Source: an uncultured Lachnospiraceae bacterium (lineage in GTDB: Bacteria; Bacillota; Clostridia; Lachnospirales; Lachnospiraceae). From it: 64,000 bases of DNA. The notes below the pieces were generated by a model. The model was not told the origin of the DNA. It saw nothing but the letters and a program-made list of their open reading frames with translations, and did no database searches. The translations under genes were made by a program, and so were the position numbers. This document shows, piece by piece, positions 57,558 to 64,000 of this stretch (the first letter of the stretch is position 1; every line of letters starts with the position of its first letter). Location: assembly GCA_951802115.1 (NCBI GenBank), contig CATOPL010000004.1, positions 62,001-126,000 of the forward strand, read 5' to 3'.

Positions 57558-60221
57558 TTAATATTCCTGTTCAGACTGTGTTTCCAGCACTGCTCTGACG
57601 GTCTGTTCCAGCACCGCCATATCAATAGGCTTGGCCACATGAGCGTTCATCCCGGCTTCCAGTGCATCCCTGATATCCTCCGCAAAAGCATTTGCCGTCA
57701 TGGCGATAATAGGGATCGTCAGAGCCAGCGGATGTCCCAGATCGCGGATCGTCCTTGTTGCCTCATAGCCGTTCATCACCGGCATCTGCACATCCATCAG
57801 GATCAGGTCGTACTGTCCATGAACGGATTTTTCAAAAGCTTCCACCGCCAGCCGGCCATTTTCACAGATTTCACAGGACGCTCCCGACATATCCAGCAGT
57901 TCTCCAAGTATCTCCGCGTTGATCTCATTGTCTTCCGCCACAAGAATATGCATTCCCTCCAGCACACTCTGTTCATTGTCTGTTTTTGCTTCCTGTTCAT
58001 CGCCCCGTATCACATCCATCTTCTGCCGAAAACTGGTAAGAAAAAAAGGCTTGGACAAAAAGGCATCCACACCCGCGGCCTTTGCCTGCTCTTCAATTTC
58101 CGGCCAGTCGTAACTGGTCAGCACAAGAATCGGTACAGATTCCGACGCCTCCTTGCGGATACGTCTGGCTGTCTCCACACCGTCCATTCCCGGCATTTTC
58201 CAGTCCAGAAGAACCACATGATAGGGCTGTCCTTCTTCTTCTGACTGCTTCACCAGTTCCACTGCCTTTTCACCTTCCAGCACATAGTCCACCTGCACGC
58301 CGGTCCCTTCCATAGTCAGCTGAATATTCTGACAGATTACTTCCTCGTCATCCACAGTCAGCAGTCTGGTAATTCCTTTTTTCTGCCAGAAATCCTGATC
58401 CACTGCCTGATCGCTGATCTGCAGTTCCAGATCCACAGTAAACGTTGACCCTTTTCCTTTCTCGCTTTCCACCTGAATCTTTCCGCCCATCAGATCCAGC
58501 AGATTCTTGGTAATGGCCATTCCCAGGCCCGTTCCCTGAATCTTATTGGTCACGCTGTCCTCTTCTCTGGTGAATACCTGGAATATCTTCTTCACATATT
58601 CACGGCTCATGCCATATCCGTTATCCTGCACAATAAACCGGAAATGCGCCAGCTTCCTGGCGTGCTGCTTCAGCTCCTGGATTGTAAACGTAACGCAGCC
58701 GCCCTCCGGTGTATATTTAACCGCGTTGGACAGCAGGTTCAGCAGAATCTGGTTCAACCGCAGTTTATCCATCACCACCTGCTCATGCTTCAGGCCGCTG
58801 TTCAGAACTTCAAATACATGACCTTTTGCTTTCATCTGTGGACGAATAATGGAATCGATATTTTCAATCAGATCCACCATACTCTCATCTGACAGATTCA
58901 ATACTGTTTTGCCGGCCTCAATCTTGCTGATATCCAGAATATCATTGATCAGGCCCAGCAGATGCTGACTGGAAGAAGTAATCTTACGGGTATATTCTCT
59001 TACTTTGTCCGGCCTGTCCGCATCTCTTGCCAGAAGGGCGGCAAACCCCACGACAGCGTTCATCGGCGTACGGATATCGTGGCTCATATTGGACAGGAAA
59101 GAGCTCTTGGCTCTGTTTGCTTCTTCCGCAATCCGAAAAGCCTGTTCCGCTGTTTCCTTTGATCGGGCAAGCAGCGCATTGGACTCTTCCAGTTTTGCGT
59201 TCAACTCCTCCTGCCGTCGCAGATTTTCCTGTTCCTGACGATACAGCCGGATACTGCTTTGCTGTCTCACAATCGATATCACAACCAGCATCAACATAAA
59301 CAGAAGACTCATCAACAGAAATAAAAGCATCCGGATTACAGCTCCCACCATTTTCACAGTTCCGGAAGCCACATAATCTGCCGGGATCAAAAAGAGCAGC
59401 AGCGTATCATATTCTGCCAGAGAAGTAAGACAGTAAAAATATTCAATTCCGTTGTATGTAAAATTGGTACTGATAATATTGTTCTCTTTTAACGCTCCCC
59501 GAATATCGGGATACGCCTGCCCTTCCATCTCTTCCAGTACTTTCAGAACATTATAGGACTGAATCGTATTGTCTTCTGAAATATCATCATGCATCCGCGT
59601 TCCATTACTTTTCAGGATATAAGTTTCATTCTGACTCCCATAGGCGGCGCTGTCATAATACTCCGCCAGTGTATAGACATCTTTCAGAAGAAGCACATGT
59701 GTAAAGCAGGTATCCGGCTCTTCTCTGATCACAAGCGGAACGTCCAGCTTCTGCACAAAAGCCCAATAGCTGCTTTCATAAATTTGAGAATCTGTGATAA
59801 AAGTATACCGCTTTTCTCCGCCGGAGATGCGGTCGATGTCGGACCATACTCCGTGTTTTCCTTCTGCATCATAACAGTTCCCCTGACGGTCAAGAAGAAC
59901 AAGTCTTGAACTGTAATTCTCTATCTCCAGAAGACTTTCCAGTTCTTTAACAAATCCGACGCCTTCCTCCGCCGTGTCAAACTCCTGCTGCTTCAGCACA
60001 TTGACCGCAGCAGTCAGATAATTCCAGTGAGAATCCAGCACATTATCCAGATTTACCCGCACCTGAGATGTGATTTCGTTTAACTGTGTCGTACGCTCTT
60101 CAAAAATCCGTGCCCGCAGATATTCTGTAAAATAAATACCGCCCACCATCAGAAACAGAAGCAGGCTGACTGCCAGTACTGCCGGAAACACCTTATGATA
60201 TTTTTTCCTTTCCGTCTTCAT
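57558..60221 (-). CDS. Membrane hybrid histidine kinase with two receiver domains (HK-REC-REC)
   Basis: Two TMs flanking an extracytoplasmic sensor; FLSNMSHDIRTPMNAVVGFAALLA; RLLTVDDEEVICQNIQ...LLDWKMPGMDGVETARRIR; HILVAEDNEINAEILGELL...LILMDVQMPVMNGYEATRTIR. Confidence 0.92.
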   Translation of the reverse strand: MKTERKKYHKVFPAVLAVSLLLFLMVGGIYFTEYLRARIFEERTTQLNEITSQVRVNLDNVLDSHWNYLTAAVNVLKQQEFDTAEEGVGFVKELESLLEIENYSSRLVLLDRQGNCYDAEGKHGVWSDIDRISGGEKRYTFITDSQIYESSYWAFVQKLDVPLVIREEPDTCFTHVLLLKDVYTLAEYYDSAAYGSQNETYILKSNGTRMHDDISEDNTIQSYNVLKVLEEMEGQAYPDIRGALKENNIISTNFTYNGIEYFYCLTSLAEYDTLLLFLIPADYVASGTVKMVGAVIRMLLFLLMSLLFMLMLVVISIVRQQSSIRLYRQEQENLRRQEELNAKLEESNALLARSKETAEQAFRIAEEANRAKSSFLSNMSHDIRTPMNAVVGFAALLARDADRPDKVREYTRKITSSSQHLLGLINDILDISKIEAGKTVLNLSDESMVDLIENIDSIIRPQMKAKGHVFEVLNSGLKHEQVVMDKLRLNQILLNLLSNAVKYTPEGGCVTFTIQELKQHARKLAHFRFIVQDNGYGMSREYVKKIFQVFTREEDSVTNKIQGTGLGMAITKNLLDLMGGKIQVESEKGKGSTFTVDLELQISDQAVDQDFWQKKGITRLLTVDDEEVICQNIQLTMEGTGVQVDYVLEGEKAVELVKQSEEEGQPYHVVLLDWKMPGMDGVETARRIRKEASESVPILVLTSYDWPEIEEQAKAAGVDAFLSKPFFLTSFRQKMDVIRGDEQEAKTDNEQSVLEGMHILVAEDNEINAEILGELLDMSGASCEICENGRLAVEAFEKSVHGQYDLILMDVQMPVMNGYEATRTIRDLGHPLALTIPIIAMTANAFAEDIRDALEAGMNAHVAKPIDMAVLEQTVRAVLETQSEQEY

Positions 60222-60268
60222 ACAGTCTCCTTTCTATCCTGAGTTCCGCATTCGCCCTCATTACCAAA

Positions 60269-62122
60269 TCAGTCTGCTTCGCGGCGCAGCGTAATATAAG
60301 GCGTCGGTGCAGCAAGCTGTTTTCCTGTCAGCAGACGATCTGTGATGATCTGTTTGTATGTATTTTCCGACCGGGTATACTCTGTAACTCCGACCGACGC
60401 CAGAACTTCTTTTTGCATCATCCACTCATTACCCAGCACCGCTACTGAATATATATCATCCAAGGCCAGTTCTTCTCCTCCCATGGTCAGTTTTTCCAAC
60501 ATATAACCGTTGTCCGTTTTTCTGACCTCCATCTCAAAACCGCTGGATACATAAAGAGACGAATCATTAATGACAGAGCCCCTCTTTCCGGATGCCGCAA
60601 AGACCTGGTTTAAATAATCTGTAAGCTGCCTGCCGGTCATCTCGCACAGCAAAATCTCTACAGCTTCTCCCATGGTCAGATATCTCAGCTCCTCTTCCGT
60701 ATAATCACCAGACAAAATATCACCAGAAACATTGATCGACTGGCCGGTCAGAAACTGCGTGCCCAGCTCCTCCCGCAGGGAATTCATAACTGCAGATGCT
60801 GCCGGACTGCCGCCCTCAGGCTCAAACCGATAAGAGTAGCCCGTATCAATATGCGCAGCAAAAGACGGTCCTTCGTCATCTTCTTTCATCGCCTCATTAA
60901 AGGCGTCAAACGCAGCTTCAGCGTCCGGATATTCTCCCAGAATCATTCCCCGGACCACCCGTCTGGAGGCAGAAAACATATCAGCAGAAGCCAGCCGAAT
61001 ATACAGCCGGTTATTGTCAATATACGGCTGCATCCGTTCCAGTATAGACGAGCATTCCAGTTTCACATCTTTATTATATGCGATCATATCCTGTCCGGTA
61101 GCGATATGCTCCAGTCCTTCCTGCCCCAGCATGGCGCTCATGATATCAAGAATCAGCTTTTCCCTTTTTGGACTTTCCTCCGCCTTAACATTAGCAGCAA
61201 TCTGAAAGGCCGGATAACTCAGATACCAGCTGTCCTCCTTTGTCTCCCCGCAATACGGAATCATCACTGCTTTTTCTTCCACATTATACCGGACGGCCTC
61301 TGCACTGGTACCACGGATCATGGCTGTCTCATTCTCCTGAAATCCGTAATAAGTATCCGCAATACTGCTTTCCAGATCTGACGCTCCAATCCCGGCAAGA
61401 TCAATGAATTCCTGCATCCGTTCAAAAACCGGCAGCCACACTTCCCTGCTCAGCTGATTGGTCTGTCCGCTCTCATACTGCTGCCTCCATTCCCTGCCTT
61501 CCTGGGATGTCAGACTCTGCACCGAAAGTCCCTGAAGAATTTCCATACAGGTATAGTCCGCCGCAAAATCAGAACGAAAAGGCCTTATTCCCGCTTCTTT
61601 CAAGGCAACACAGACTTCTGTAAATTCCTGATAGTCTGTCGGAATATCCAGCTTGTGCTCTTCCAGCAGCGCCTGGTTCACAAGTATGCTGTCGATCTCC
61701 GCGCAAGCAGGAAGCCAGTTCATCGTGCCATCGCTGTAAGTATAGCTGCGCAGATAAGATTGATGAAACGTACCTGCCAGTTCTGTATCACTCAGATCCA
61801 TCAAAGAGTCTTTAAAGGAGGCCACATCTCCCAGAGAAAAACGCCGAACGGTCAGAATGTCAGGCAGCGCTTTCCTTTCTGCCCGAAAACGATAATAATC
61901 CGTGGAATTTGTGATAACATAAAACTCAAAATCCACTTCCGGAAAGGTTTTCTGTAAATACTGCCCATAATTTTCCGTCAGCTGATCGCTCCAGAAAGCG
62001 ACCGTAACCGTTTCTTTTTTCTCTGCTGTCCCTGAACCGACCGTCTTCTTGCCGCATCCGTTCAGTCCCGCAATCAAAATCAAACCGGCAAGCAAGAACA
62101 CCGGACATTTTTTCTTCTGCAT
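60269..62122 (-). CDS. Lipoprotein: ABC-type solute-binding domain fused to 5'-nucleotidase-C-like domain (copy A)
   Basis: Lipobox LNGC; VAFWSDQLTENYGQYLQKTFPEVDFEFYV; C-terminal ASAVMNSLREELGTQFLTGQSINVSGDILSGDYTEEELRYLTMGEAVEILLCEMTGRQLTDYLNQVF. Confidence 0.75.
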   Translation of the reverse strand: MQKKKCPVFLLAGLILIAGLNGCGKKTVGSGTAEKKETVTVAFWSDQLTENYGQYLQKTFPEVDFEFYVITNSTDYYRFRAERKALPDILTVRRFSLGDVASFKDSLMDLSDTELAGTFHQSYLRSYTYSDGTMNWLPACAEIDSILVNQALLEEHKLDIPTDYQEFTEVCVALKEAGIRPFRSDFAADYTCMEILQGLSVQSLTSQEGREWRQQYESGQTNQLSREVWLPVFERMQEFIDLAGIGASDLESSIADTYYGFQENETAMIRGTSAEAVRYNVEEKAVMIPYCGETKEDSWYLSYPAFQIAANVKAEESPKREKLILDIMSAMLGQEGLEHIATGQDMIAYNKDVKLECSSILERMQPYIDNNRLYIRLASADMFSASRRVVRGMILGEYPDAEAAFDAFNEAMKEDDEGPSFAAHIDTGYSYRFEPEGGSPAASAVMNSLREELGTQFLTGQSINVSGDILSGDYTEEELRYLTMGEAVEILLCEMTGRQLTDYLNQVFAASGKRGSVINDSSLYVSSGFEMEVRKTDNGYMLEKLTMGGEELALDDIYSVAVLGNEWMMQKEVLASVGVTEYTRSENTYKQIITDRLLTGKQLAAPTPYITLRREAD

Positions 62123-62167
62123 GATAGCCTGTTCCCCCTTTATCCTGTTATGTTGCTCTCTTTTCTA

Positions 62168-63958
62168 TTATTTCCAGGGATTGCCGTTTGCAGAAACAGA
62201 CTTCTGCTCTTCCAGCCAGGTATGCAGAAAACTGCGCAAAGAGCCCTGACATACCTGAGCAGAATATTTTTCTGCTGTCTCTTCCGTATATCCCTGCATG
62301 AGAAACGCTACCTGATAAACCACATCGTCCTTAAGCTCCATATCTCCCTTTGTTATCAGCAGATATGGAAACGGATTTCCATCCCCTGCCACATCAAAGC
62401 CAGCCCCTGCAAGTTCCTTTGCCTCTGCCCCGGTCATCGTCATGACCACATATTCTCCGTCATAAGAAGGCATAATCATACTTACAACATCTGTGTTGAT
62501 TTTGCCTTTATACAGCTTTCCGGTAATTCCCTGTCTTAATTCCACAGCGCCTTCATGAAAACCACCCAGAGGAATCATGACCGCATCTGTCCCGGCTGCG
62601 CTTCCCAGCGCCTTGCCAACCAGCTTCCCGGTTTCTTCCAGACTAAAATCCTCCGTACTTTCACAAAAATCAAGTTCTCCTGAGCTGCGCAGATAACTCT
62701 GCTGCAGTTCATCCATCCGGACAATACACTGCGAACCGTCCACTCCATTCTCTCTGCGGAACCATTCTTTATAGACCTGTCCGATATCCGCCAGGATATG
62801 CTCCCATCCGGCATAAGTCATCTGAAACGCCCGCCCGTCCCGAAGCGCCTGCTGCGCGTCATAGATCATGGAATCCTCCATGACATCAATACTTCTGACA
62901 GGACTCATGACACACGGCGTCGTTTCATCAATGAACGTAGCCTGACCTTCCGGCGAATACATCAGCGACAAGAGTTTGACGGCATTTTCCAGCTTTTTTT
63001 CATTGCCCGGTTCCGTCAGGCGGCTGCTGATTCCGAAATAAAAAGTCGGACTGTACATATAGATATTTTTACTTCCGTCTTCACTGATAAATGGCATCAG
63101 ACCAAGTTCATCGCCGGTATCCGGAAGCTCTGTAATGTTCACAGTCTGTACTGCAGTGCAGAATACAGACTTTCTCTGTCCAAGATAATCAAGGATCAGA
63201 TCAGGATTATTTCTGTCCTCCGGATCCGTCTCGAACATTCCAATATCCATATACCGTTTTACATAATCCATGGTGTGTTCCCACATTCCCTCCGCAAGAA
63301 CGTCACCTGACAGGAAATCTCTCTCCCACTCAACCCCTTCGGGCGTTGTAAGCCAGTCGGTCTTGGCCAGATTGAAAACAGTGGAAAACGGACCGCCTGT
63401 AAGCTGTGTACCCAGCACACCAGGTATCAGCCCCTGCTCCCGGATCTCCCCGCACAGCGTCTCCAGTTCGGCAAAATCAGAGGGAATTTCCCATCCGTTT
63501 TCCTCCATCAGCGTTTTATTATAGTAAATACCATACATCGAATAACTGGTGGGAAGAAGATAAATCCCACCGTCGACAGAGACCTGATCGAGAACAGAAA
63601 CCGGAAAATCATTGATAAAATCATAACCGGACAAATCTGCCAGTCGCTCCTTTGCCAATTCTTCATCCAGGATCTGTGAAGTAATAAAAATATCCGGAAT
63701 ATCATCCGCACGCATCTGCGCCCAGCTGTAACCGGTAATGTTTCCTCCTGTATAAGAGATAAATTCCAGTTCCATTTCCGGATATGTATCATTTAACAAT
63801 TCAAGAAATTTTTCATATCTGCCATAGCTTCCCCAGGTCCCCCAGGTCAGAGCATCGCTGTTTTGTTCTGCACCTGCTCCGTCAGGAGCACACGCCTGCA
63901 GCAATATGGCGGCAGCAACAGACAGCAACAGAACTTTTTGTTTCAATCCTGCATACAT
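62168..63958 (-). CDS. Lipoprotein: ABC-type solute-binding domain fused to 5'-nucleotidase-C-like domain (copy B)
   Basis: Start MYAGLKQKVLLLSVAAAILLQAC (lipobox), GAGAGGAG RBS; LELLNDTYPEMELEFISYTGGNITGYSWAQMRADDIPDIFITS; C-terminal ETGKLVGKALGSAAGTDAVMIPLGGFHEGAVELRQGITGKLYKGKINTDVVSMIMPSYDGEYVVMTMTGAEAKELAGAG. Confidence 0.75.
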   Translation of the reverse strand: MYAGLKQKVLLLSVAAAILLQACAPDGAGAEQNSDALTWGTWGSYGRYEKFLELLNDTYPEMELEFISYTGGNITGYSWAQMRADDIPDIFITSQILDEELAKERLADLSGYDFINDFPVSVLDQVSVDGGIYLLPTSYSMYGIYYNKTLMEENGWEIPSDFAELETLCGEIREQGLIPGVLGTQLTGGPFSTVFNLAKTDWLTTPEGVEWERDFLSGDVLAEGMWEHTMDYVKRYMDIGMFETDPEDRNNPDLILDYLGQRKSVFCTAVQTVNITELPDTGDELGLMPFISEDGSKNIYMYSPTFYFGISSRLTEPGNEKKLENAVKLLSLMYSPEGQATFIDETTPCVMSPVRSIDVMEDSMIYDAQQALRDGRAFQMTYAGWEHILADIGQVYKEWFRRENGVDGSQCIVRMDELQQSYLRSSGELDFCESTEDFSLEETGKLVGKALGSAAGTDAVMIPLGGFHEGAVELRQGITGKLYKGKINTDVVSMIMPSYDGEYVVMTMTGAEAKELAGAGFDVAGDGNPFPYLLITKGDMELKDDVVYQVAFLMQGYTEETAEKYSAQVCQGSLRSFLHTWLEEQKSVSANGNPWK

Positions 63959-64000
63959 AAAGGCCTTTTCTCCTCTCATTTTTTACCTTATTGTATGTAT

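Follow-up and report, generated by a model that had tools for sequence, protein, structure and literature searches.

The locus at the end of the window, a stretch of 64,000 nucleotides from the genome of an uncultured Lachnospiraceae bacterium, raises the question of what two consecutive lipoprotein genes and a membrane hybrid kinase gene accomplish together when neither a permease nor a cognate regulator lies beside them. An ORF check places the three genes on the minus strand, at 62168-63979 (lipoA), 60269-62122 (lipoB) and 57558-60221 (the kinase), precisely where a preliminary description of this DNA had put them, with gaps of 45 bp between lipoA and lipoB and 47 bp between lipoB and the kinase gene. 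The terminator claimed there was recovered too: a consensus scan, the only method applied to it, finds an intrinsic-terminator-like hairpin with a T tract on the minus strand directly 3' of the kinase gene (57541-57521; L001 2542-2522), which comprises eight pairs, seven of them G-C, and the tail CCTTTTTGTT. Past the terminator the next gene encodes a ClpB-like AAA protein; the operon contains no cognate regulator, the sole receivers being the hybrid ones of the kinase itself. The genes upstream of the window, named here from their sequences, include a divergent one resembling a C-N hydrolase and one resembling a glucanotransferase. A promoter-like site (TTGACT-17-TAAAAT) is located upstream of lipoA just past the window end (L001:9004-9032); it is a consensus match only, and sites of this kind show no excess over shuffled sequence.

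The products of lipoA and lipoB, of 603 and 617 amino acids, carry the lipoboxes LLQAC (lipoA, lipid-anchor Cys30) and GLNGC (lipoB), as read from the sequence. Both join a solute-binding protein (SBP) half to a C-terminal domain like that of 5'-nucleotidases (5NTC), a fusion that had been proposed for both proteins and that Pfam and family profiles uphold. The SBP half of lipoA, at about residues 44-350, matches SBP_bac_8 (39 bits, E 1e-9) and SBP_bac_1 (E 1.7e-7) in Pfam, that of lipoB gives an SBP_bac_1 match below the cut-off (E 1.9e-4), and the two proteins are paralogues across this half (24% identity, E 2e-18). Against the PDB, the lipoA family profile retrieves family-1 SBPs, with 3quf best (E 2.5e-21) and several sugar, maltose and chitooligosaccharide binders following; the hits also include 4G68. 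From these homologies, a sugar or an oligosaccharide is the most likely guess for the ligand of the SBP half.

The 5NTC-like domain spans residues 428-603 of lipoA (62171-62698, minus strand), supported by family profile A6 against the PDB and by hhalign to UshA, and residues 437-562 of lipoB (60437-60814, minus strand; extent of the PF02872 match, with hhalign to UshA). In Pfam, lipoB scores 25.2 bits against the curated PF02872 cut-off of 23.6, and the single lipoA sequence has no PF02872 match. Across the families the domain is detected in 10 of 20 lipoA members (best E 2.6e-21) and 22 of 26 lipoB members (best E 4.4e-11), or 32/46 overall at E<=0.1. By hhalign, the C-terminal profile of lipoA aligns with that of lipoB (97.7%, E 2e-12), and both align with E. 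coli UshA (E 3.8e-4 and 1.3e-5, respectively). The best PDB match of both is the 5'-nucleotidase 3ivd, at E 2.1e-6 for lipoA and weakly for lipoB (E 0.032), whose following hits include UshA entries. The predicted 5NTC fold thus stands for both C-terminal regions at the level of profiles but not for lipoA on its own, and the motif that the preliminary description quoted from 'copy B' comes in fact from lipoA, the gene whose lone sequence misses PF02872. A PF02872 search over the whole genome at E<=0.001 returned nothing even though lipoB passes the cut-off in the protein-level search, and this genome-level negative is not relied on. Because an AlphaFold2 model of lipoA, computed from a 4-sequence alignment, reached a mean pLDDT of just 36.5, sequence profiles are what supports the 5NTC fold and any interface.

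The third gene encodes a hybrid histidine kinase of 887 amino acids with the order TM-dCache-like ectodomain-TM-HisKA-HATPase_c-REC-REC, in agreement with the HK-REC-REC architecture first assigned to it, as Pfam finds HisKA, HATPase_c and two Response_reg domains. The catalytic core comprises residues 371-601 (58419-59111, minus strand) and features the motif FLSNMSHDIRTP; the receivers follow at 58017-58367 (LLDWKMPG) and, for residues 759-875, at 57597-57947 (LMDVQMP), both on the minus strand and located by Pfam and motif position. The ectodomain, about residues 36-290 (59352-60116, minus strand; TM ends read from the sequence), is the proposed docking surface for the lipoproteins. Pfam does not detect dCache_1 in the window's ectodomain alone; the N-terminal regions of homologous kinases align with it (alignment A4), and 11 of 26 match dCache_1, with a best E of 4.8e-14.

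The association of these lipoproteins with kinases extends well beyond the window. At E<=1e-30, 19 genomes in a sample of 298 from the same family encode a lipoA homologue and 20 a lipoB homologue, and wider samples yield few, with 3 of 398 genomes in the phylum and 6 of 388 in the class, the window's own genome being counted in each. In an initial survey of 48 full-length lipoproteins with neighbours, 39 have a hybrid kinase gene directly beside their own in the same orientation, compared with 15 of the 145 remaining large genes of these loci. The counts come from related genomes and are not independent, so a Fisher value computed from them should not be read as a probability, and the background is itself inflated by kinase clusters. 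The spacing is usually 4-70 bp, and a 4-bp overlap is frequent. Six further cases keep the link in a cluster, an operon or a different protein context: four non-adjacent lipoproteins (L001, L026, L029 and L045) are encoded by the first gene of an A-B-kinase operon or lie beside a kinase truncated at a contig end, that of L089 adjoins a kinase split into two ORFs, and in L043 (11431-13725) a dCache-GGDEF-EAL membrane protein takes the place of the kinase beside the lipoA homologue, a direct c-di-GMP variant of the module. Three of the 48 are left as exceptions to kinase linkage. For two of them, the 'orphan' lipoA of G106/L030 and that of the genome of L044, a lipoB-kinase pair whose ectodomain is the cognate one is encoded at another site of the same genome; a second lipoB copy of L077 has no adjoining kinase. 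The pairing recurs for six further lipoproteins in five loci, as well as in three loci of other families within the phylum, one of them in a genome of a different class. The linkage that the preliminary description expected in homologues has therefore held. Since the kinase can lie up- or downstream of the lipoprotein and the flanking genes differ between loci, we reject passive synteny as its cause.

Several loci show additional arrangements. In one clade (L083, L084, L085, L087, L089 and L090), another hybrid kinase and an SBP_bac_3 protein, a domain checked in L083 only, precede the lipoB-kinase pair, with the result that SBPs of two kinds and at least two kinases share a cluster. On two IMG/VR contigs, lipoA-kinase and lipoB homologues sit at the ends of proviruses, near a lysin-like gene in L124 and an integrase-like gene in L125; these ends are probably host DNA flanking prophages that had integrated next to the module. 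In L041 (1608-2708), the reading frame of a lipoA homologue continues into the last part of a receiver domain, as would be expected from a deletion joining lipoA to the kinase gene or from a chimeric assembly.

The lipoproteins had initially been taken to act as a pair, and this does not hold as an obligatory arrangement. The A-B-kinase order is found in the window, G261 and G060, lipoA with a kinase and no close lipoB in G280, G107 and G692, and lipoB with a kinase and an unlinked lipoA in G106 and G691; the existence of lipoA-only genomes with a kinase, together with the two genomes in which lipoA lies apart from the lipoB-kinase pair, leads us to reject the obligatory pair. All eight genomes with the window's kinase type have lipoA, while lipoB is optional; the set was picked by lipoA presence and hence cannot show that the kinase never occurs without lipoA. 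G013 retains lipoA beside a divergent kinase, no kinase of the window's type was found in G188, and a more distant locus, L127, has HPt, kinase, lipoB and lipoA genes in one run.

Which signal such lipoproteins could perceive, and for whom, is best approached through the alternatives. The C-terminal half shares homology with the domain that binds the substrate in 5'-nucleotidases, and on this ground the lipoproteins might sense nucleotides or sugar-nucleotides through it and relay them to the kinase, the ligand class originally suggested. The residues that form the UshA pocket (R375, R379, R410, F429, N431, F498 and D504) are, however, replaced or missing in essentially all 46 homologues: R375 is lost in 46/46, R410 is T/S/N/G/A in 46/46, the D504 position is gapped in 46/46, F498 has no aromatic equivalent in 46/46, and at F429 an aromatic residue (Y/W) persists in some lipoA members only. 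As Phe429 and Phe498 of UshA stack the purine (PMC7922932), canonical nucleotide binding is not expected. Furthermore, Pfam finds no PF00149 metallophosphatase domain in lipoA, lipoB or their families, an SBP standing in its place, so the catalytic partner domain that forms the cleft is absent. With the pocket residues lost and the metallophosphatase half absent, the 5NTC-like half is, by these comparisons, a non-catalytic derivative of a nucleotidase domain. We consequently reject a nucleotide ligand, also in view of the SBP half being nearest to sugar SBPs, and regard nucleotide sensing as very improbable.

The lipoproteins could instead be ordinary SBPs of an ABC transporter with its permease elsewhere, the neighbouring kinase merely regulating uptake genes. 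Their SBP_bac_1/8 homology to sugar-transport SBPs would fit this, SBPs with distant permeases exist, and some SBPs combine transport with signalling. Yet there is no BPD_transp_1 permease on the whole 210-kb contig, in keeping with the claim that none adjoins the genes and including the region upstream of the window, where one would have spoken against a signalling role; most ordinary SBP_bac_1 genes of the same genome have a permease within about 3 kb. None was seen beside any module map examined in relatives either, the systematic permease search covering the window's own genome only. The steady pairing with kinases of one ectodomain type in varied gene settings, and a large additional 5NTC domain that transport SBPs lack, also argue against this explanation, which we consider unlikely. 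It is slightly harder still to maintain that the kinase acts alone through its ectodomain and that co-regulation of the lipoproteins serves a different task outside the cell, such as scavenging ligand away from the kinase or work on the cell envelope. dCache domains usually bind ligands directly, and a related hybrid kinase of the same genome (L107) has no adjoining SBP, both as a kinase working alone would have it. Against it, lipoprotein divergence follows the kinase ectodomain more than the catalytic core, with Mantel r of 0.83 versus 0.74 and partial Mantel values of 0.57 versus 0.21, a comparison without tree correction to which shared species phylogeny may contribute. Moreover, L043 pairs the same lipoprotein family with a dCache GGDEF-EAL protein, leaving the ectodomain as the common part.

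We therefore favour, with a probability of roughly 0.7, a three-gene sensing operon in which lipoA and lipoB would be signalling-only SBP co-receptors of a dCache hybrid kinase, in the manner of LuxPQ or CuaDSR. Because the SBP-5NTC fusion comes without transporter genes and with a conserved kinase link, the best inference is that the lipoproteins present a ligand to the kinase and not to a transporter. On the molecular level, lipoA and lipoB would be membrane-anchored SBPs dedicated to signalling, whose SBP half may capture a small molecule from outside the cell, with a sugar or an oligosaccharide as the most likely candidate, and whose catalytically dead 5NTC half would probably act as an arm for docking or closure. 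On the model of LuxPQ, TorTS, XylFII-LytS and CuaDS, the loaded or the empty lipoprotein would touch the neighbouring kinase at its dCache-type ectodomain and shift the balance between its autokinase and phosphatase activities. The phosphoryl group would then pass to the two receiver domains, on to an HPt protein and from there to receivers elsewhere, with c-di-GMP enzymes as the favoured output.

The kinase probably feeds such an HPt relay, judging by the neighbours of homologous modules. HPt genes adjoin the modules of L039, L045, L091, L127 and L128, REC-HD genes those of L045 and L082, and REC-GGDEF-EAL genes those of L037 and L039, and it is this recurrence that makes c-di-GMP enzymes the favoured output of an inferred route from kinase through HPt to c-di-GMP enzyme. 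HPt and c-di-GMP genes adjoin only some homologous modules, and none adjoins that of the window. Two HPt proteins are encoded in the window's own genome: one is long, with the length of CheA at 718 aa, and the other is solitary (G000:C6:60148) and has a different HK-REC-REC gene beside it. The genome also encodes a REC-HD-GGDEF protein (G000:C15). In the same genome, a receiver is fused to a RelA/SpoT synthetase-type domain (L136:1109-2158, G000:C1), a candidate phosphorylation-controlled alarmone enzyme.

More tentatively, and less likely than not, a whole undescribed receptor class might exist in Lachnospiraceae-type bacteria and sporadically in other Clostridia, in which SBP-5NTC lipoproteins, single or as a lipoA/lipoB heteromer, would be obligatory co-receptors of dCache hybrid kinases or dCache GGDEF-EAL enzymes, the 5NTC domain being a kinase-docking arm exapted from a nucleotidase and c-di-GMP the output. 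Many hybrid kinases of gut Clostridia have unknown signals, and the conserved SBP-5NTC partner offers a handle on them: a soluble form of the lipoprotein could be purified for ligand screens and so provide the signal for a whole kinase family. If the proposal is true, the substrate-binding domain of a nucleotidase has been reused without catalysis inside a receptor, and extracellular, probably glycan, sensing is tied to c-di-GMP in gut Clostridia.

SBP-kinase pairs as such are known, among them LuxP-LuxQ, TorT-TorS and XylFII-LytS (PMC6321045), and SBPs adjoining kinases also occur in Pseudomonas (PMC11113362). In the CuaDSR system of Ruminiclostridium cellulolyticum, another member of the Gram-positive Clostridia, the gene of a signalling SBP lipoprotein likewise lies directly beside that of a membrane kinase; CuaD binds CuaS, is separate from the transport SBP and was modelled on 4G68, the template that also appears among the lipoA matches (PMC10384115). 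CuaD is described as a 410-residue mature SBP, with no mention of a 5NTC domain, and CuaS is not hybrid and has an AraC-type regulator in its operon (PMC10384115). In the window, lipoA and lipoB have the 5NTC domain, and an HK-REC-REC kinase is combined with two SBP paralogues and no adjacent regulator. LuxP-LuxQ and TorT-TorS share with the window a periplasmic SBP partner and a membrane hybrid kinase (PMC6321045). They differ from it in taxa, ligand and the 5NTC tail, and the SBP halves of lipoA and lipoB are, by Pfam and across the families, of the SBP_bac_1/8 and not the LuxP type (periplasmic-binding type 1). LuxP and TorT are single-domain proteins of a different SBP type, and LuxQ/TorS-type hybrid kinases use an HPt step. 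Hybrid systems such as LuxQ also lack an operon regulator, which is not strictly defining for three-component systems. In Vibrio parahaemolyticus, the periplasmic SBP-like protein ScrB is coupled to the membrane GGDEF-EAL protein ScrC, an arrangement that resembles the L043 module; it differs in organism and SBP type and has no kinase.

Within the same genome, a second SBP-hybrid kinase pair, its genes 2 bp apart, lies at about 28.2-31.7 kb of G000:C8 (L105:6242-9747); its kinase core is 58-62% identical to that of the window and it too has no permease nearby, but its 439-aa SBP lacks a 5NTC domain and its kinase has one receiver. On the same contig, an SBP lipoprotein gene is directly followed by one for a 4HB methyl-accepting chemotaxis protein, with no permease (L106:6531-9431), a possible SBP-chemoreceptor pair. 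Compared with the 5'-nucleotidase/UshA/CpdB family (PF00149 plus PF02872), to whose C-terminal domain theirs is homologous, lipoA and lipoB have an SBP instead of the metallophosphatase and have lost the nucleotide-binding residues of the 5NTC domain, and are not enzymes of that family. A search confined to open-licence literature, and so a weak indication of novelty, turned up no paper on the combination of SBP, 5NTC and kinase; what appears to be new is the SBP-5NTC fusion as a kinase partner, its breadth and its two-paralogue form.
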